From contig OX485809.1 of assembly GCA_950295325.1 (NCBI GenBank), positions 33,418,001-33,482,000 on the forward strand: 64,000 nucleotides of DNA, written 5' to 3'. This document shows, piece after piece, positions 16,408-47,271 of this stretch. Numbering within the stretch: the first letter of the stretch is position 1; every line of letters begins with the position of its first letter. Both the position numbers and the translations under genes were made by a program. Under the pieces are notes generated by a model, which worked only from the letters and a program-made list of their open reading frames with translations, was not told where the DNA came from and did no database searches. This stretch comes from Polytrichum commune. Taxonomy: Eukaryota > Streptophyta > Polytrichopsida > Polytrichales > Polytrichaceae.

Positions 16408-17115
16408 ATGCCCAAAATACATATCAATGAATGTAACCCCGATAATGACATCGCTTGCTCTAAAAATACCATCCAAAGCCAACATGGTGTAGCGCACATC
16501 TACGACAACGAAGGTTGGCACTTAATTACCATCCCCGAACAAAGGTTACAATGGCTATGGGAACAATACCACAATGCATTAAGCAAACCACACAACCTAG
16601 AACCCCCCACACAATCATTCAAAAAAGAAGTAGTATGGTTATACCAAAGATACAAATATAAACTGCCCAAAAATGATCCCCTCAAACTTTCACAATGTAC
16701 ACTCCCAAATGCCATCCTTGAACATATCATTGACTCCTTCCATATCACACATTCATACTTCTCATCACCTGTCACATGTCCTACCAAGCTAAAACAATTA
16801 TCCTCCACATTCTCCCGAGACAAAGTTTTCGGGTCAATAGGAACGGCATTCCAACATAAATGGACAGGTAATGGGTATGCCCACCCACATACAGAAGATG
16901 ACACTCAACAAGCCCTCCATTGGGCAAGACTAGCAGCCCAAAACAACCCAGACACAATTACAATTACAACAACTGATCCAAACTGGTATTTGAACCTTCA
17001 CCTCCATGAAGGTCATTTTCCGGACTCACACGTCATCACTCATTTTAAAGCAGACACCATTGCATATGAGGAACCCACGATACCACCAGAACTAAGAATC
17101 GAACCTCAAACATAA
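16408..17115 (+). pseudogene. LINE polyprotein fragment upstream of RNase H
   Basis: The frame of 235 codons contains RDKVFGSIGTAFQHKWTGNG, YAHPHTEDDTQQALHWARLA, and then an HFKADTIAYEEPTIPPELR-like end. I recall similar blocks from plant non-LTR elements, where they lie between the reverse transcriptase and RNase H, but I cannot name the domain. Its first ATG (16408-16410) lies inside the target-site duplication, so this start is host DNA and not element sequence. A frameshift after 17115 separates it from the RNase H frame. Confidence 0.65.
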
Positions 17116-19076
17116 AGTCGTGACATTAGAATATTGTGTATACACCACAAAACCACATCCATCGGACCAACATGATACGCACGTCGCATGAACATCATTG
17201 GCAAATCTCTACAAATACCTACCATATATAGCACAACCGCATCACCCACACCAACAAACACCTTAGTAAACCGTAGTAAAAACTGGTCTCAACTCACATA
17301 TCCGCCCCCCCCCCCCGCCCACGACCCAAAACACTAATATACCACCAATCACAAACCATGATATATGCCTACCCCTCAAATACCCACCGCAATACTGTTA
17401 TTACACCGATGGATCATTTATTCCACCCAAAGCAATAACCCAAGAACACTGGAGAAGAGAAAAGGCAGGATACGGAATATATAACCCTTTTAAAAACCTT
17501 AAATTTGCAGAACGACTTCCAGGCCTCCAAAACATACTACGAGCGGAATTGATGGCTATCCACCACACTCTTCGCCTCCTCACTACCATATACCGTAATG
17601 AACCCGCACACATTTTCACAAACTGTCTTAATGTATTATACCTCCTAAACACACAAACGAAACACCCAACCTCACATAACAATCACCCAAACAGGATGAT
17701 ACTTGAATCTATAATTGCGATGCTAAAATCTCGCACCCAAACCACCACACTACATAAAGTCAAAGCCCACACGAATATTAGTGGCAATGAACAAGCGGAC
17801 AAATTAGCCAAAATGGGATGTGAATTAGAACATAGAGATGCCACAACAACATATGAACATGCACACTCCACGCCATACTACCTCCAAAAATGATGGTGGC
17901 ACTCAATGCAAGAAACACCATACAAAGGCCCCATCCGGCACCTTGGTAAATACATTAGTAAATATGACAAAAATCACAACCTAGCCCTCATCGCAACCCA
18001 AACACATCAATTACACAAATGGCTAGACAATAAAGATATAGACAAAACATTATCTAACGACTTCTGGAACAACCCAGTCATTACAGACAAACAAAAAACA
18101 TGTTTAGTAAAATTTCGAACCGGACAATACATGGGACATGCTCGAAAACAACTCTTCTTCAGAAGAAATTCATACCCATCCCATACATGTCCTATATGTA
18201 ACTCACTAGACGCAGACACATGGCTACATATGCTCCTAAAATGCAAACAACAACACATTCATGCGCTCATAACAAATAGACATAACAAAGCAGTATGGGA
18301 AATACGCAAGCTTCTCGTCTCAAACAAAGTAACAAGACATTACATACTTATGAATGCAGGCACGTACAATGAACTACCCCAAGAAAATACAGTCCCAACA
18401 TGGTTACTACCATGCACGTGTAACGCCCAAAGATACCACTGCAACACTAGGCTCAAACCCGACATACTATGCATCATAGGCCACCCATATCACTCCCCAC
18501 CACCAGAAGCACCTACGCCAACAATTACTATACAATTCATTGAATTTACATTCTGCAACGATAGGTTCTCGGCCGAAACAAGAGAGCGAAAAATTACAAA
18601 ATATCAACCACTCATCAACAATATCATAGCAAGAGGTTGGAATGTAGCACCACTTATAGTACTAGCGTCAGGTGCTAGAGCCACAACTCACATTCCCTCG
18701 ATGAACGAACTCGAAACAAAACTCAAACTCCCTAAATCCCAAATTAGGAGCACATTTAAACAAATCAACATAATCGCCATACAATACGCACACTCAATTT
18801 TGATTCATAAAAGAAGACTAGAAAACAAACAATCCGTCACATATTTACAAAACCACTGCTAAAACCTGTGAACCCAATACACCCTCCTTCCCCCCCCCCC
18901 CCCCGGTTAAACCGGTAAAAAACCTTTAGTTACTAAAATAGTGTCTACTCCCTGCAAAGGGTGAAGTAGTATTACATCCAACGCCACTACCCTGGGGTAT
19001 GGCCACGGATGTTCTACGAACAAACACTTTATTCACTCCGGCCCCCCTAGTTGGGACCGCAGTTCTTCTTCTTCTT
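16413..19076 (+). mobile_element. 5'-truncated LINE-like retroelement with RNase H domain
   Basis: The insertion is bounded by an exact 14-bp direct repeat, CTCTCCAAAATGCC, at 16399-16412 and 19077-19090. It ends in a short (TTC)n tail directly before the second repeat. Both are marks of target-primed reverse transcription. Inside are a downstream polyprotein fragment, an RNase HI domain and a C-terminal Cys/His motif typical of non-LTR elements. No reverse-transcriptase core is present, as expected if the copy lost its 5' part on insertion. A C-run of about 14 lies near 18890. Confidence 0.85.
17372..18862 (+). pseudogene. LINE RNase HI plus C-terminal zinc-knuckle region, one nonsense codon
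   Basis: One reading frame runs through this region, interrupted only by a TGA at 17891-17893. RNase HI landmarks are YYTDGS (first Asp), ILRAELMAIHH (Glu), IFTNCLNVLYLL where the usual Asp is Asn, and HKVKAHTNISGNEQADKLAK (His and last Asp). Downstream, CPICNSLDADTWLHMLLKC resembles the CCHC-like motif after RNase H or RT in non-LTR elements, followed by a long C-terminal region ending TYLQNHC. Loss of one catalytic Asp plus the stop make this copy inactive. Confidence 0.75.
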
Positions 19077-21574: not shown

Positions 21575-24500
21575 ATGGCGGAGACTGAGGCATCCCGCAA
21601 GAGCAGGATGCTTATGTACAGCTACCTGCTCATCTACATCCTTCTCTCCAGCGGCCAAATCTTTTTCAACAAGGTAAAGCAACCATGTCTCACGCTTTTG
21701 GCAATTTTATGTTTTTGGTTGGTCCTAGATTGAATCTTGAGTGTCCTCTGTTGTTTACCTCCATAGCATTTGCACCCCGATGCTCATATACACCTTCCTC
21801 TTCAGCCACCCGATCTTCTTAACAAGGTGAAGAAGCATGCATCAGACTGCAATTTTGTTTTGTTCTTGGGTTTTTGGGTAGTCTTGGATTGAATTTTGAG
21901 TGCTTTCTGTTTTTTTATCTCCATAGCATTTGCACCCTGATACTCATATACACTTTCCTCTCCAGCCACCCAATCTTCTTAACAAGGTGAAGAAGCATGC
22001 CTCAGACTGCAATTTTTTTTTTGTTCTTGGGTTTTTGGGTAGTCCTGGATTGAATTCTGAGTGTCCTCCGTTGTTTACCGATGGCATTTGTATCCTGATG
22101 CTCCTATACACCTTCCTCTCCAGCCACCCAGCCATTCTTCTTAACAAAGTGGAGAAGCATGCATCAGATTGCTATTTTTGTTTTGTTTTTTGGATTTTTG
22201 GGCAGTCCTGGATTGAATTTTGAGTGTCCTCTGTTGTTGACCTCCATAGCATTTCTACCCTGATGCTCATATACACCTTCCTCTCCAGCCACCCAATCTT
22301 CTCAACAAGGTGAAGAAGCATGCATCACACTGCAATTTTGTTTTGTTCTTGGGTTTTTGGGTTTCTGGGTAGTCCTGGATTGAATTTTGAGTGTCCTTTG
22401 TCGTGTACCTCCAGAGTGTTTGTATCAGATGGTTCTTGTGGCTTGCTTTAGCAGTCTTTTCACTTTTGGGTATTCCAGCTTTGAATTGTGGTTGTCTTGT
22501 ATGTGTAACTCTGTAGCAAATCGGATGCTCTTTTGGTGTCCAGTCATGTGTTGAGAAAAACAGGGCACTTGCCATATTTGTTGGAACTCTTTTAGGAGGG
22601 CGGGGATTGTGGAGTTTCTGGAGACGGCTGTGGTGAAGATTTTTTTCTCAGTTTTCTGTATTAAAGCCTTCATTTAAGTAGAGACGTTATCTGTTGTAAC
22701 CCCTCAAATTGCGATGCATATTACTGCAACAATGTGGTCAAGATAAGGAATTGTGATTGCTTTGAATGTAAGTGATGTTCTTGAATTGATGCTGGAAAAT
22801 TGGTTCCAAGGACAACGTTGTGAGTAGTGGTGGTGGTTTTCTACTTTATGTGGGCATAGCCTTGAATTGGTCAAGTTGATTGATATTTTGTGTGGGAATA
22901 AGTCAGACAAGCACATCCCTCAAAAACCTTAGAAAAGTATTGTTGAAGGGTTTTAGGGAAGAGCTAAGGTTTTATAACAGTGTACCCTCCCCCTCTTCCG
23001 GATTGGAGGGACACTAACCACAATAGCAACCACCATGACTGCTTGCTCATGAAGATTGATACCTATTTGTCATTGTATAATTACAGAGGAGCTCAATTTT
23101 TTGTTGTTTGTGTTTGGAATCTGGAATATTGTAGTGGGTGCTGTCGGACAGCACCTTCAACTTTCCTTATCCCGTTGGCCTTACGCTCCTACACATGGTT
23201 TTCTCGTCGGTGCTCTGCTTTTTGGTGGTGCGAGTATTCAAGGTACGGAGTTCTTCACTGTGCCTACATTTTCCCAGCTTGTCTCATTCTATGATTTGAT
23301 GAGTTCAAGGGTATTTCGAATTGGCATTAGAAACGTTTTCCAGTCCTTCAGGTTGACTGGAATGTAAGTAGTGGCAATGTTGTCATCACTTCAATGGAGA
23401 TGGAGTCTCTCTTGAATGTTGAATTTAACTTCTCCCTTGTACAATTTATATATCAACTTGGACCACTCTTTTGGTTGGCATTGCGTACGGCTTTGAAGCA
23501 TATGGCATCATGGGACACGGGAGGCTCTTCTACTTGGGAACCTTGTTCTTGTTCAGAAAAAATAGATGTACCAATCAATGTTGGGCTAGTATATAGGTGA
23601 ATGTATGGGTATGAATAATCAGCATCAATAATGGTATCAAAGAACCTACCTGTGGGTATCAAATTGTAATACCAGTCAAATATTGATTTTTGGTGGTTAT
23701 GTTAAGGTGAGAGAATTTTTGTATACCCAAGTTATTATTTGGGTCAGGACCATTCTAAACCATATTTATACTTGGGCGATTTAACCTAGGTATGAGGGTT
23801 CTTGCATGGTATAAAGACCCAAATGGTCTCATAAGCAAATATACCATCAAATGCCCATACTCTATTGTATCGAAAAATTTGAAATCCTCATTATAAATAC
23901 CTGAATGGTATGTAGAAAGGACGATACCAGTCCAACACTGGTATAAATTAGGTTGATTCCTATTCCATGGAGCTCATCAGTTTTGAGGGAAAAATTGAGA
24001 TATATTTGTGACAATGTGCACGTGGGTGGTTGTGACATGGCACAGTGGGTGAAGCTGGAGCAAGGCATGACTTATGACATGTGAGCCTTGCTGACCCTAC
24101 AGACCTTTGCAAGGTTCAGAGGTAGCCTGCCTGCCATCCCTCTCATTCACCATAAAAGTTGGATGTCTGTAGTCGTTTCTTCATACCCCTTTTTAAGACG
24201 TGCTCTATTGTTATGATAAAAATATGAGTCATCAAACAGTGTAGATGTTGTAATTTTGGCACCAATTTTGAACTTGGTAATCTACTTTGTGATAACATAG
24301 TTCACTTGAAAAGTGGAATGAGATGCATTGGTGTTTGGCGAATGCAGCTTAAAGTTCCAGGATATAGAATGGATTCAAAGTCTGGTTGATGTGTCTGGAT
24401 TTTTAAGTTTTGTAATGCCATTAGATGTACAAGAATATTATGCAGAATTCCGTATATGCAAATTTAGAAGGATTGGAACATTGGTGTTCTATTCTTGACG

Positions 24501-27500
24501 TTTTATTTGTGATGTTGGGTGGATCCACAGCTATCTTTCATCTGTACTTCCAATTGGAGCTACGTTTGCTTTGACATTATGGCTTGGCAACACATCTTAC
24601 CTGTACATTTCCGTTTCTTTTGCCCAGATGCTGAAGTCCATAAGTAAGTTCGTCTCCCTTCACCATGTACTTTGTCTACGGTATGGGGGCTTTTCATGGT
24701 CACTTTAAAAAAAATGCACAGCTATATTTGAGTTGTGTGTGGTTAAGTTTGGATCTAAGACACAAACGGACACCAAAAAGACTTGTGTTTAGAATAGATT
24801 GGATTATGTGCTCAAAATTTGTTAACCAGTCTAGGCTCAATAGTCAACTCAAATGGGGGGACCTATATGACCACTAAATGAGCACAAGAATCTTCACTTC
24901 GATTATGATTAAGATATTCATACGAGTTTCCAAAATTATGAGGTAAATGGCTACGGAGATGATATGAAATTGGCAATTATCTTGCACTAAATATGTGTTT
25001 TTCATTCCTAGGAGAAGTGGGTGCAGGGCTAAACGCGTCCATTTAAGACCTTACCATACATAAACCTGCAGGCATTCTATTCTTGTTGTATTGCAGGTTA
25101 GTTTTAAAGACACCAACTCCTAAATTATTGGATTTTGCAGTGCCCGTGGCTGTATTTCTCCTTGGCGTATTCTTTGGCTTGGAGGAAATGAATGGGCGAA
25201 TGTTGGGCACAATGGCTATCATCAGTGGTGGGGTTGTAATTGCTTCATATGGAGAAGTAAATTTCAACTGGATTGGGGTCGTTTACATGATGGGAGGAGT
25301 GCTGGGGGAGGCGTTTCGCTTGATTTTCATTGAGCTACTGCTTAAGAAAAAAGGCTTGAAGTTGGATCCCATTACAATGATGTATTATGTGAGCCCCTGC
25401 AGGTTAGTTGCTAACCCTTACAGGACTGAGTGTGTGTTTGTATGGGATGCAGGATGATTTGTACAAATCCCAACAAGTGCTGAAATAATATTTTAATTGG
25501 TCTATGACGTCTGTATTGAGCACAACCTATTAAAAAGAGGAAGAGAAAATAAATTTATCTGCGACAATGGTGATTAGATGTATGTGGTATGTATTTGAGT
25601 CTAGGTCATTATTCAAGCTCAAATCTCTTTATAATTTAATTTACACATATATGGGTGCTGCTCCAATTGGATTAGTGCATTAGATAAAATGGACTAGCTT
25701 TAGATAGGATCTCTTTTGACCAATTTGATTGAATATACTAAGGATATATCTTAACCCTCTCCATATGACACCTTGAGGCCCAAAATGGGCCCCTCTGACT
25801 TGTAAAGCTTAACCTCTGTTTTCAATAAGTGTTCTGTTGAAGTGTTGTATTGACACCTTGCAATGTGGTGATCACTATTAACTGGGAAGACGCAGTACTT
25901 GAGAAATTTCCTCATCCTGGTTCATAAATACAAACTTATGTTATTTGTGGTGCTTATTTTTTTTGGGAGTGGCCTTGTTGATGATATTTTTCTTGGCATG
26001 GTTTAATGCAGTGCCCTGTGTCTCTTCGTACCTTGGATCGTTCTGGAGAAGCCTAAGCTTGATGCTGCAGTGCAGTGGCACTTTGATCCTTTAATCATGA
26101 CACTCAATGCTCTCTGCACATTTGCGTTGAACGTGTCGGTATTTTTGGTGATCTCTCACACAAGTGCCCTCACGATACGAATTGCGGGGGTGATCAAGGA
26201 CTGGGTGGTGGTGCTTGTCTCTGTTTACCTTTTTGCTGATACAAAGCTCACCGCCATCAACATCTTTGGCTACATCATTGGTACGTATTGTGAAACAAAC
26301 GCCTCTGAAGATTTCACATAAGCAACATATCATCTTACTTTTAATGAAACGAGCTTCTTGGAAAGAAATAAGATGTCAGAGCTTTGAAACATGTTTGGCC
26401 TGTGGCTAAGTTGATAGAAAATACCTTTTCTGTTTATTGAGCATCTCCATTGTCAAAGTTGTTGGTAGTATGGCGGTAGTGAGGTAAGTTCACAATGTTA
26501 AATTTCTTAAGAATAAGCTTGGGTCAAGAGCTCATGAAGTCTAATACCCCCTGACAATTTCACATCAGGAACATCATCTTACCATTAACAATATGAGCTT
26601 CTTGGAAGAACTAAGATGTGAGAACTTTGAAACATGTTTGACCTGAGACTAAGTTGATAGAAAGTACGCTTTTTGCTTATTGAACATCCTCACTGTTAAA
26701 GTTGTTGGTAGTATGGTGGTAGGGAGTTCCTTATTGCCAATGCTAAATTTCTTAAGAATAATCTTGAGTCAAGAGCTCAAAATTTGATGTCAGCTGCAAG
26801 CATCTGGGGTGGTGATGTTGCATAGTGCATATGCTGACAGGGCTTAACCCTTATGCATCCGAGAGTCCCGATTTGGGTCTCCATCCACCAAAATTTTTAT
26901 TTGAGCTACATATTTCCATTTCAAGCTAATTTTTAGGGTAAAAAATGACCCTATCTAAAACTAACTCAATCTTTAATTGTACTTTTCAAACCAATTGAGT
27001 ATCTATGTATTTGAGGAATTGGGTTCAAAGACACAGCCTGGGTGCCCTTGGATGCAATTGCATGCTAAGTAGTTCGATTATCAATGTCACATATGGGTAT
27101 ATTTTAATATTCTCCTCGACATAAGGTAATATACCAAATAAAGATTAATCTTCATAAATATAAAACTGTGATTTTAAATCTCCGTGAGGCTTGTTGAAAT
27201 TGTGTCTGTAGGTTGTACATTGAGCACCTTGGTCCTTTAAGGGTTAATGTAAAAGTTATGGATGGTCCAGAAAATTCTTGTGTGCAGGAAACTGATAAGT
27301 GTGTTTTGTGGATGGGCAGCCATATTTGGGGTCTATTTATATAACTCGCAAAAGATGAAAGACACTGCAGCTGCAGCTGCAGTGACCAACAACTCCACCG
27401 AGCTCGAAAATCAAGCGCTCTTGGTGGCTAGAAGTGCATCAATGAAGGAAAAAGTAAGTAAAATAAAATAGAAATCGCCAACCTCCACCAACATCATTCT

Positions 27501-27938
27501 CTGGTGTCTGGAACTTGAATTCTATTTCCTCAAGTATCGTCAACCTTCACAAGTTCACTAAGTTTTCATGGGTTGTTTGGGTTGTCTAGGAAAACTAAGA
27601 AAGCTTGGATATCAGATTTAGATGCCGTGGACTCACCTTGCTGTGGTTAGTGTGTACCCACCTACATAAAATGTGTATTTTGCATGTATGGTTGTTTTCA
27701 AGGATGGTCCAAGGATGGTCCAAGGATGCTCAACTTGTGCCCAATTGCTTTACTGTCGTGTACTTCCACTTATTAAAGTTAATTTACTATCCTTGGTGTT
27801 GCTCTATGAGAAATAATAACCAATAGCAGTTTTCATGACTTCAACTAACTCCATGGGTTGCTTCAATTGCAGCAAAGTGGAGACGTGGAGCTGGAAATGG
27901 GTTATGTGGACAGTAAAGAGGCAGATGTACGGCCTTAG
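21575..27938 (+). CDS. Sugar-phosphate/nucleotide-sugar translocator family protein (TPT/NST, EamA fold)
   Basis: This is a membrane transporter of the plant triose-phosphate/nucleotide-sugar translocator superfamily, probably in Golgi or another endomembrane; the substrate is unknown. Exons: 21575-21673, 23135-23242, 24348-24385, 24531-24643, 25141-25402, 26012-26280, 27320-27453, 27873-27938, about 362 aa. Family blocks in order are YLLIYILLSSGQIFFNKW, NFPYPVGLTLLHMVFSSVLC, LPIGATFALTLWLGNTSYLY, SVSFAQMLKSIMPVAVFLLG, SYGEVNFNWIGVVYMMGG, YYVSPCSALCLFVPW and SHTSALTIRIAGVIKDW. Hydrophobic segments fit about ten membrane helices. The tail is hydrophilic and variable. Exon 3 joins exon 4 in frame only with a non-GT donor (TCTGG|TTGATG). 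Intron 1 holds an exon-1-derived tandem array and intron 6 a tandem duplication. Confidence 0.88.
21728..22440 (+). repeat. Tandem array of decayed exon-1 copies in intron 1
   Basis: Four full units and a partial one repeat at about 159-167 bp; the word GATTGAAT recurs at about 21728, 21887, 22048, 22211 and 22378. Each full unit contains a decayed copy of the end of exon 1: TACACCTTCCTCTCCAGCCA and CTTAACAAG followed by GTGAAG, against exon 1 CTTCTCTCCAGCGGCCAAAT and TTCAACAAG followed by GTAAAG. The duplicated unit therefore included the exon 1 splice donor and the start of intron 1. Confidence 0.85.
24745..25055 (+). repeat. Dispersed repeat F, copy 1 (in transporter intron 4)
   Basis: The stretch matches 60665-60965 in order: a word like GACACCAAAAAG, ATTATGTGCT, CCTATATGA followed by CACT, CCAAAATTATG, and finally GAGAAGTGGGTGCAGGG and a CCATTTAAGACC-like end. 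It lies within intron 4 of the transporter. A shorter related piece occurs near 40590-40640 (GTTTAGAAGAGATTGGA). The class is unknown. Confidence 0.55.
26306..26795 (+). repeat. Direct tandem duplication (about 240 bp) in transporter intron 6
   Basis: The two halves share GAGCTTCTTGGAA, GAAACATGTTTG, AAGTTGATAGAAA, AAGTTGTTGGTAGTATGG and AAATTTCTTAAGAATAA, in the same order, about 240 bp apart. The duplication is clearly diverged, so it is not recent. Confidence 0.75.
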
Positions 27939-28160
27939 CATACAGCCATTCATGATCCTCCACAAACAAATTTTGACTCAGTTCACCATACATACTTTGA
28001 TGACAACATCATAGGTCTGCAAAATGCTTTCAATGAACAAGCGTGGAGGCCAGCTTTCTCGACTGCAAAAAATGGAGAAGCATCCTCTGAGACAAACCTT
28101 TCAAATTTCAGTACGAGGATGCAAAGGAAGCGATGTTGTCACCCAGATTGTCAAAAGTGA

Positions 28161-29035
28161 GTTTCTGCTTGGTAGGTGCAGACACATTTCAATTAGGATA
28201 CAATTTACTGATACATCAGTTGATTGGTAGGTAGTAGCAAACCATTTATTAAATGTGATACAGCCAAGTGGGTATCATTAAATAGGTGCATCTGTTCACA
28301 TGATGTACATGTTAGAAGTCAGGATACAGGATTACCCAGTTAGCTCATTGAGACATAGTACTCAAAAACATCTGCATATTTTGCGGATGCTGTAAAAATC
28401 CATCCCATGGCTTCTAGTGTATTTTTGTAGGGCTTTTTAATTGCATACTTCCCTGCCCTGGGGTTCGGACATTGTTGTTTAGATCAAATATGATAGTTAA
28501 CATAGTGTAAGTCACACAAGAGTAGAGGTTTAGTGGCCTCATTATATTTTTATCATCTAAGATTTAGGGAAACTTATTATGAAGCTCGTAATAATAATGT
28601 TGATGTAATACATGGGTTACCAAACATTGTCTAGAACAATAATGAATTTATGAGGACAAAGCCATTATATGCCTAAAAATTGTGTGAAGTTGTTTAAGAA
28701 CATTGATTGAACCTGATATGTATACCCACAAAATGAGCTCTTGTATACAATTCCTATGATTACATGGAGTCTGCAAAAGAGTTTGAGCCTTTGGAGTTTC
28801 TCGTAGCTGACTAGTGTAGGGTCAAAGACTGGGTGTCTGTTTGGTTATACTCTCCTCAAGGGTTGGGAAGAGGAGCTGTACACCTATCTGGTTTGATGCG
28901 CACCATTATAATGAGATGTTTGGGCAATGCGTTGTTGGAACTTGTAGGCAATCGAAAGTATGATTCGATTCAATTAAAATTTTGCAAAAATAGAATAATT
29001 AAAGCGGTGGAATGATTTCCAAAAAATTACGTATC
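28161..29035. other. Intergenic between transporter and tRNA-Lys
   Basis: No exon was recognised. Directly upstream of it (27939-28160) the transporter reading frame stays open beyond its stop codon, reported as a finding. Confidence 0.5.
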
Positions 29036-29107
29036 GCCACCCCAGGGGCTCGAACCCTGGACCACAAGGTTAAGAGCCTTGCGCTCTACCAACTGAGCTA
29101 GGACGGC
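29036..29107 (-). tRNA. tRNA-Lys (anticodon CUU)
   Basis: On the minus strand the 72-nt sequence folds as a standard cloverleaf. The acceptor stem is GCCGTCC against GGGTGGC with G-U pairs, the D-arm is TAGCTCAGTTGGTAGAGC, and the anticodon loop is CTCTTAA. The T-arm carries CCAGGGTTCGAGCCCCTGG. The anticodon CTT reads lysine AAG codons. No intron is present and no CCA is encoded, as usual for nuclear tRNA genes. The A and B box promoters are intact (TAGCTCAGTTGG and GGTTCGAGCCC). Confidence 0.95.
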
Positions 29108-29109
29108 AT

Positions 29110-44758: not shown

Positions 44759-45099
44759 CATAGTAGTCAAGTGGGAGAGCATGACCAGTGATGTGATTGT
44801 TGCTAATGCATAAGAAATGGACATGAAATAGTTTTAAGAAAATACTCTCCTACGTGAATGAACATCATCCACTCCACCAACAATCTTGGTGTTGGTGCTG
44901 GCATACTTGCGCAGATCTCGAGGCAATTCTTGGTATAAAAAATTTGGTGACCTTGTACACTCAAGTTCAGTCATTGCATAACTTAGTGGGGTTCTTTGGA
45001 GTGAGAGAATTTGTGGTTGTCATGACACATCTCTTCTCACCTTCTGTTCCATTGTTGAACTAAATGATGTACATGGTTCCACATTACTCGCACACTAAT
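44759..45099. other. Intergenic, nothing recognised
   Basis: A 69-codon frame at 44854-45063 has no known motif. Confidence 0.4.
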
Positions 45100-45351
45100 G
45101 TTGTCAAATTTCATGCAATGGTGATAACACATGTGGATGATGTTGTCAAATTTCATGCAATGATGAGAACACATGTAGTTGATGTTGTCAAATTTCATGC
45201 AATGACGAGAACACATGTAGTTGATGTTGTCAAATTTCATGCAATGACGAGAACACATGTAGTTGATGCTGTCAAATTTCATGCAATGGCGAGAACACAT
45301 GTAGTTGATGCTGTAAAATTTCATGCATTGGTTAGAGCACATGTAGTTGTA
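45100..45351. repeat. 42-bp minisatellite, six units
   Basis: Units start near 45100, 45142, 45184, 45226, 45268 and 45310; each has GTTGTCAAATTTCATGCAAT and then GAACACATGTAGTTGAT or a close variant. Because 42 is divisible by three, both strands stay open: the plus strand reads a 14-residue repeat like VVKFHAMTRTHVVD and the minus strand one like NYMCSRHCMKFDNI. No start or splice context supports a gene. Confidence 0.9.
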
Positions 45352-47271
45352 CCAAGCTCCGAGCTCCAAGTTTTCCTCCTCGTGTCCACTTAGGGACACA
45401 CATGTCAGCAAAATCATTTGATCTCACCAGTGCGTATTCTTTACCCTTCAAACGTCATGCCAAGTATTGCAAGTGCAAATTCTTGATGGTCCTCTACATG
45501 GGGCGTCCACTACTATATAATTGATGTCAACAAGGATATTGTTTTGTAGAATGTTGCCCCACCAAACTTGTGGTCCTACATAAACCCAAAGGCTCGATCC
45601 AAAGAGGTATGATGCATGTAACTAAATATGTATGCCAAGTCCTTCATCTAAGTTACAACTCCTATGAAGATGATCAAGCATAACTTTCTAAGCTTGTTGA
45701 TGTGTGGTTGATGTGGTTGATGTGGTTGGGATTTCGTTCTCCATGCATAACTTTCTAAGCTTGTTATTCTTTGGTTACTTTGTAGAGTTTCAAAGATTGA
45801 TTCTGAAATCACAATAGGTGCTCATAAGATGCGTTTGTGTTTTGTGATGCAAGTTATTATGAACCTTTATTTGTGGCATACGATTTTCCAAGATTCAAGA
45901 CATTTGATGTCTTGACCTACATTGTCGAATTGGCTGCATTGTTAGATTTGTATTGTGTACTTTGACATATCAATTAGTTGACAATTGCAACTGCAAATTT
46001 ATCATATAAAGTCATTTCGGACTCGATTGCAATACAATTGTCATTGTTCTCAACAACCCACTATGTTTTTAGGTCAATTCATTGCGTCAATATGGTGACG
46101 TGACAAAATCATTCATTTTTTTCATGGTTGCTCTTGCAGTATCTATCATTTCAAATTCTAGATTTGTAATATGCTAATTGCATAGGTTTTCCAATGAATA
46201 GAACTTAGGTTCATTTTATGAAAAGGAAGTTACAAATAATAACACATGTGATTTTAGTATACATAGCCACAATTCATGTGTTGTGGCTCCAAGGAACATC
46301 ATTATTGGTACAAAGGAATCACAAAGGCAACAAGCTTAAGTGTCACAAGTTGCTTTGGTTTGTACCCAAAAGGAGAAATATCACAATTAAGACTTCTACA
46401 GAAAGTTTGACTTGGTCTACTCATTGGGTCTAATAGGGAAATGTATTGTAAATGGTCACTTCACTTTGGTCTTATGTTGTGCCTTATTTTGGGGTTTTAA
46501 GTGGTCACTAAGCCTCTCTAAACAAGCAACATACATGATTTGTTATCATGCAACCAAGCAACAAATAAATGCTTTTGGGGGAACAAGGTGACAAATGAGT
46601 AGTGATATATTTGTGTCTCAAGGGGGCGGATGTAAAACATGGCACGTGTGCATTAAAATACACTTGAAATTGGTCAATGCAAGTTGGTTGTTGCTTCATA
46701 CTTTACTTTCGTGGGACAATCAAAATTACACATGTTTTTGCTCAATCAAATGTCCGTTATAGGTGCTTTTAGCTTAAAAGTGGTGTAGGAGACTTGTGAG
46801 AGCTTCTTGACAACCACCAAGACAATTTCCATGCTGCATGTCAGGAAGCTCCAAAGGTGCACTCCCGAGTGTTTACAAGCAACTTCCACCCAAAAAGTAC
46901 TCTTTTCCGGATCACCTTCCAACGAGCCATACCATTCTAGTATCTAAAAGCAACACTTTTGTCCTCCCTATTTGTGCTTTCCATTTCATTTTTGCTTTTG
47001 ACATACATTCCTTTTAAGTGTGCCCTTGTTTGTTGTCTCCAATCACCAATTTTTCATCCAATTCATGTTTTCATCCATTGTTGTCATATGGTAGTAATCC
47101 ATTCTTGTGAGGGTTTGCAATTGTGTTCTAGTTTACAAATTGGAGGCTCTTGGACAACTCATAGGCTTTCTTGAGTCTTTTTCTCTGGATTGTAGCTAAG
47201 TTAATTTACTCTAGTCTTTGTTTGCTTGATGCAATTGTTGAGTTACATGCTATGGATAAAAAACCGTTCAA
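45352..47271. other. Intergenic, nothing recognised
   Basis: Several open frames of 60-70 codons without motifs. No RNA gene or clear element was seen. Confidence 0.45.

Follow-up and report, generated by a model that had tools for sequence, protein, structure and literature searches.

Minisatellites that span an exon-intron boundary, known as 'mirages', have been described in lancelets, where they occur in the globin genes BflGb6 and BflGb9 and in Adh3, TnC and PGBD5 (PMC3087553, PMC3902484). Their units measure 150-160 bp in BflGb6 and 157 bp in BflGb9; splice signals are kept in many of the units, the copies at the boundary itself escape homogenisation, and RT-PCR suggests that splicing is normal (PMC3087553, PMC3902484). 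The BflGb6 units are 81-100% identical, and their number varies between haplotypes (PMC3087553, PMC3902484). In the potato RdRp gene, a two-copy tandem duplication across an intron-exon boundary has created an additional intron, the splicing of which RNA-seq supports (PMC4974935). Tandem exon duplications and arrays of mutually exclusive exons also have exon-derived copies in the adjacent intron, and degenerate intronic exon copies form a recognised class (PMC9013439; Exonize, PMC12343006). A search of open-licence papers found no plant case named 'mirage', a result that is weak evidence of absence.

The locus studied here lies in a window of 64,000 nucleotides (C7:33418001-33482000) from a moss genome of 408 Mb in 64 contigs. 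It comprises an intact gene of eight exons (Table 1) for a transporter of the TPT family (triose-phosphate transporter; sugar-phosphate-type). The joined exons translate in a single continuous frame of 361 residues, without an internal stop and with a terminal stop codon, and residues 17-304 match the Pfam domain TPT (PF03151; E 4e-31). The acceptor of exon 2 falls exactly where a preliminary description of this DNA had placed it (23134|23135). Two open reading frames of 235 and 318 residues upstream of the transporter (16408-18862, plus strand) give the impression of a LINE-like retrotransposon fragment, and a tRNA-Lys (CTT) gene is found on the minus strand just 3' of the transporter (29034-29108).

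Table 1. Positions, within the window, of the transporter exons and of the repeat units in intron 1
Feature	Position	Strand	Remarks
Exon 1 (MAETEASRKSRMLMYSYLLIYILLSSGQIFFNK)	21575..21673	+	The repeat derives from this exon; donor AAG|GTAAAG; full ORF in the eight-exon model
Founder copy (exon 1 end, donor and intron 1 start)	21627..21776	+	nhmmer E 1.5e-38
Intron 1	21674-23134		1461 nt
Unit 1	21777..21936	+	Exon-1-like part, donor after 21826, intron part; putative cassette 21767-21826 (60 nt, phase 0, open)
Unit 2	21937..22094	+	Donor after 21986; putative cassette 21927-21986 (60 nt, phase 0, open)
Unit 3	22095..22259	+	Degenerate: 4 nt inserted, TAA stop in frame and acceptor AG lost; donor weak (AACAAA|GTGGAG, after 22148)
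Unit 4	22260..22427	+	Nearest to exon 1 in sequence; donor after 22309; putative cassette 22250-22309 (60 nt, phase 0, open)
Possible remnant of a unit (intron part), heavily decayed	22457..22518	+	nhmmer E 0.27, not significant; 79% over 33 nt in the repeat search (family D4)
Exon 2 (WVLSDSTFNFPYPVGLTLLHMVFSSVLCFLVVRVFK)	23135..23242	+	Acceptor TTGTAG|TGG
Exons 3-8	24046-24080, 24531-24643, 25141-25402, 26012-26280, 27320-27453, 27873-27940	+	Same transporter gene; whole span 24046..27940

Within intron 1, TRF reports a single array (21711-22413; period 160, 4.3 copies, 83% matches), and four units of about 160 bp can be delimited between 21777 and 22427. Each reproduces, in collinear order, the final ~47 nt of exon 1 followed by the splice donor and ~105 nt of adjoining intron; tandem units that join an exon part, its splice site and the neighbouring intron of one gene are the build of a mirage. 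A profile of the exon 1 end, the following intron and the four units matched all five copies (E 4.8e-51 to 1.5e-38) and had no other significant match across the window. The array proper is considered to begin ~30 nt into intron 1 (21705-21711), because the distal part of the intron segment that belongs to exon 1 itself (~21705-21776 of the founder copy) behaves like a member of the array. The preliminary description had presented intron 1 as built from copies of exon 1, which is true of the array but not of the intron as a whole, about half of which (~720 of 1461 nt) the array occupies. It had also ascribed the junction AACAAG|GTGAAG to all four units; the units and their exon 1 ends are indeed there, but only units 1, 2 and 4 carry this junction, while unit 3 reads AACAAA|GTGGAG. 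A deletion of 1 nt relative to exon 1 is common to units 1, 2 and 4, and unit 3 has it as well, apart from its extra insertion. The units differ from each other by 12-13%, which makes a duplication artefact of the assembly unlikely.

The exon-derived parts of units 1-4 align to exon 1 with scores of 40, 41, 30 and 50, and the best of 2,000 dinucleotide shuffles per unit reached 27, 29, 29 and 32, respectively. The similarity of the units to exon 1 is not a product of chance, since it exceeds all 2,000 shuffles in every unit (narrowly in unit 3, 30 vs 29, and clearly in the others), the best match of exon 1 elsewhere in the window scores 24, and among all exon-by-intron pairs of the gene only exon 1 versus intron 1 stands out (50, with every other pair at 25 or below). 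Since the coding sequence of exon 1 already includes the beginning of the TPT domain (from residue 17 in the Pfam match), we regard exon 1 as the original and the units as its derivatives.

An array with a 160-bp period is nothing remarkable in this genome, and its only special feature is the overlap with an exon boundary. In a background sample of 18 segments of 10 kb (180 kb, from seven contigs) scanned by TRF, two arrays with a period of at least 100 had at least three copies, namely 181 bp x 4.6 (L015, 3457-4271) and 229 bp x 3.9 (L018, 4531-5427), and five more had about 2-3 copies. Elsewhere in the window, a 42-bp unit is tandemly repeated at 45098-45349 (6.0 copies, 94% matches) within a minus-strand ORF (45037-45417; 126 aa) that repeats a 14-residue CSRHCMKFDNINYM-like unit; this array is far younger than that of intron 1. 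The abundance of arrays of similar period would suit an origin of the repeat as an unrelated satellite or transposon fragment whose resemblance to exon 1 is secondary, and the preliminary description had held that wide dispersal of the 160-bp unit would point in that direction. However, genome-wide searches with three DNA queries and one pattern (up to 3 mismatches; very common words skipped) found the unit nowhere else in the 408 Mb, the homology runs collinearly across the donor, and the intron array matches no Rfam family at E up to 1; an unrelated origin is therefore extremely improbable. The same observations led us to reject a dispersed repeat or transposon (one locus found genome-wide) as well as a snoRNA cluster or structured RNA within the intron (for which Rfam gave no match). 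Neither the intronless paralogous transporter on C1 nor the paralogue at C7:37.399 Mb gave a unit match in the genome searches. Within the limits of a search that skips common words, the array is restricted to one gene, as mirages are.

Distances between the units are near-uniform in all six comparisons (K2P 0.126-0.149; identity 87-89%), and the variable sites among them are nearly all singletons, as is expected from one short burst. The founder copy departs from this pattern. It stands at K2P 0.30-0.33 from the units, and its exon 1 part with the first ~30 intron bases at about 0.3; up to ~21705, founder-unit divergence amounts to 22-40% and unit-unit divergence to 4-13%, and beyond ~21705-21730 the corresponding figures are 12-19% and 15-25%, with the founder-unit divergence falling from ~0.4 to 0.15 near 21705-21730. 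The copy at the exon boundary hence lies outside homogenisation, another property of mirages. A single burst is hard to reconcile with this split divergence of the founder copy, to which an old duplication can be fitted if later amplification and exchange extended to the distal intron part of the founder but not to the exon.

The history of the array may accordingly be envisioned as follows. An old tandem duplication would have placed the donor region of exon 1 into intron 1, where the duplicate would have dropped one base and lost its coding role. Later unequal crossing-over or gene conversion would then, within a short time, have produced four units and homogenised the distal intron segment of the founder copy while leaving out exon 1 itself, probably because the protein would suffer from changes in that exon; the natural barrier to homogenisation would, we infer, have been purifying selection on exon 1. 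From then on the units would have decayed neutrally. The array would be removed with intron 1 (splice 21673 to 23135), and any use of the copy donors would amount to noise. At an assumed rate of 0.5-1e-8 substitutions per site per year, which is not calibrated for this plant, the amplification burst would date to some 7-14 million years ago, so that the array looks static rather than hypervariable; the divergence of ~13% between the units likewise suggests no recent turnover of copy number. An origin from exon 1 and its donor with spread by repeated unequal exchange, as the preliminary description had entertained, is supported by this evidence, namely by the collinearity across the donor, the single locus, the near-uniform divergence and the unhomogenised exon side.

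Three of the four copy donors look competent on paper. Pairing with the 5' end of U1 is predicted at -6.9 kcal/mol for the donors of units 1, 2 and 4, at -6.8 for the true donor and at -2.7 for unit 3. As ATAG precedes units 1, 2 and 4, these units might be read as alternative cassette exons (ATAG|CATTTG...AACAAG|GTGAAG) of 60 nt and phase 0, each of which would lengthen the protein by about 20 residues (in unit 1, HLHPDAHIHLPLQPPDLLNK) following the first transmembrane segment. In these three units the acceptor, the donor, the length and the open frame are all kept, the donors pair with U1 like the real one, and 93 nt would be left as the first intervening intron. Moreover, the exon-like and proximal intron columns are less variable than those of the distal intron (18 of 102 vs 21 of 55; Fisher p 0.006 for a split chosen post hoc); the smaller number of variable exon and donor columns could hint at constraint, or could be caused by the history of exchange. 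Against the cassette reading, an open 60-nt phase-0 frame is expected by chance in 55% of shuffles, and by our own estimate the survival of three out of four cassettes at the observed divergence is unsurprising. The frame bears no relation to that of exon 1 because of the 1-nt deletion, the His/Pro-rich insert would land beside a membrane helix, and unit 3, at 64 nt, with the AG lost and an in-frame stop, is dead. A hand count of the changes in the cassettes of units 1, 2 and 4 gives ~5 non-synonymous and 3 synonymous ones, which, with so few differences, is not clearly off neutral. There is no indication of coding selection on the units, nor of selection for keeping their donors, and we regard cassette exons as very improbable.

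The copy donors might alternatively, as the preliminary description had suggested, serve as decoys, which would lower or tune the splicing of exon 1, a regulatory brake yielding truncated, NMD-prone transcripts. They lie at +153, +313 and +636 from the real donor, look competent, and an exon 1 extended to any copy donor would run into a stop at 21731, after 52 codons. The lack of any sign of selection preserving these donors argues against such a role, as do the position of the real donor, which lies nearest the constitutive exon and is the first to be transcribed, and the report that lancelet mirages with intact splice signals do not disturb splicing (PMC3087553, PMC3902484); a decoy function is improbable. 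An alternative first exon starting at an ATG within a unit was rejected, as the 47 nt from ATG to donor in units 1 and 4 are out of frame with exon 2 and unit 2 has no ATG. The motif TTNGATYTG of intron-mediated enhancement is absent from intron 1.

Taken together, the array is very probably a decayed exon-intron boundary minisatellite ('mirage') that goes back to an old duplication, a later burst and neutral decay, and it is most likely without function. Should the intact units 1, 2 and 4 be spliced in as 60-nt in-frame cassettes or offer regulated decoy donors, for which we see only a slim chance, a mirage minisatellite would have come to control splicing or to supply isoforms of a membrane transporter in a plant. 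If the array is neutral, as is likely, it offers a modest example for work on how introns grow. It shows a coding exon seeding repeats while staying outside their homogenisation, and with three competent-looking donors beside the real one it represents a state from which introns and exons could naturally be gained under the duplication model; AG|GT, on which the Rogers model of intron gain by tandem duplication relies, is present in units 1, 2 and 4 at the level of sequence.

When compared with tandemly duplicated exons, the locus is alike in carrying exon-derived copies in the adjacent intron, but the copying took in no more than the 3' end of the first coding exon (~47 of 99 nt), the 1-nt deletion shifts the ancestral frame, and there is no full in-frame homologue. 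With the potato RdRp gene it shares a plant host and a tandem duplication over an exon-intron boundary near the 5' end; there, two copies of an acceptor region led to a new intron, whereas the moss gene has four units with a donor. The closest match is with the lancelet mirages, which have the same architecture, a similar unit length and an unhomogenised boundary copy, so that the view of the preliminary description that an exon-derived array in the intron of its own gene is unusual applies only in part, this architecture having been published (PMC3087553, PMC3902484). In the moss the duplication affects exon 1 at its donor end, which may be compared with BflGb9, where exon 2 is affected at its 3' boundary, while BflGb6 has the acceptor end duplicated; relative to the BflGb6 units, those of the moss are four in number, 87-89% identical, older and apparently static. 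The host is a plant rather than a cephalochordate, and the moss array appears to be a plant instance of a structure which, in the literature searchable here, has been described as a 'mirage' only from lancelets.
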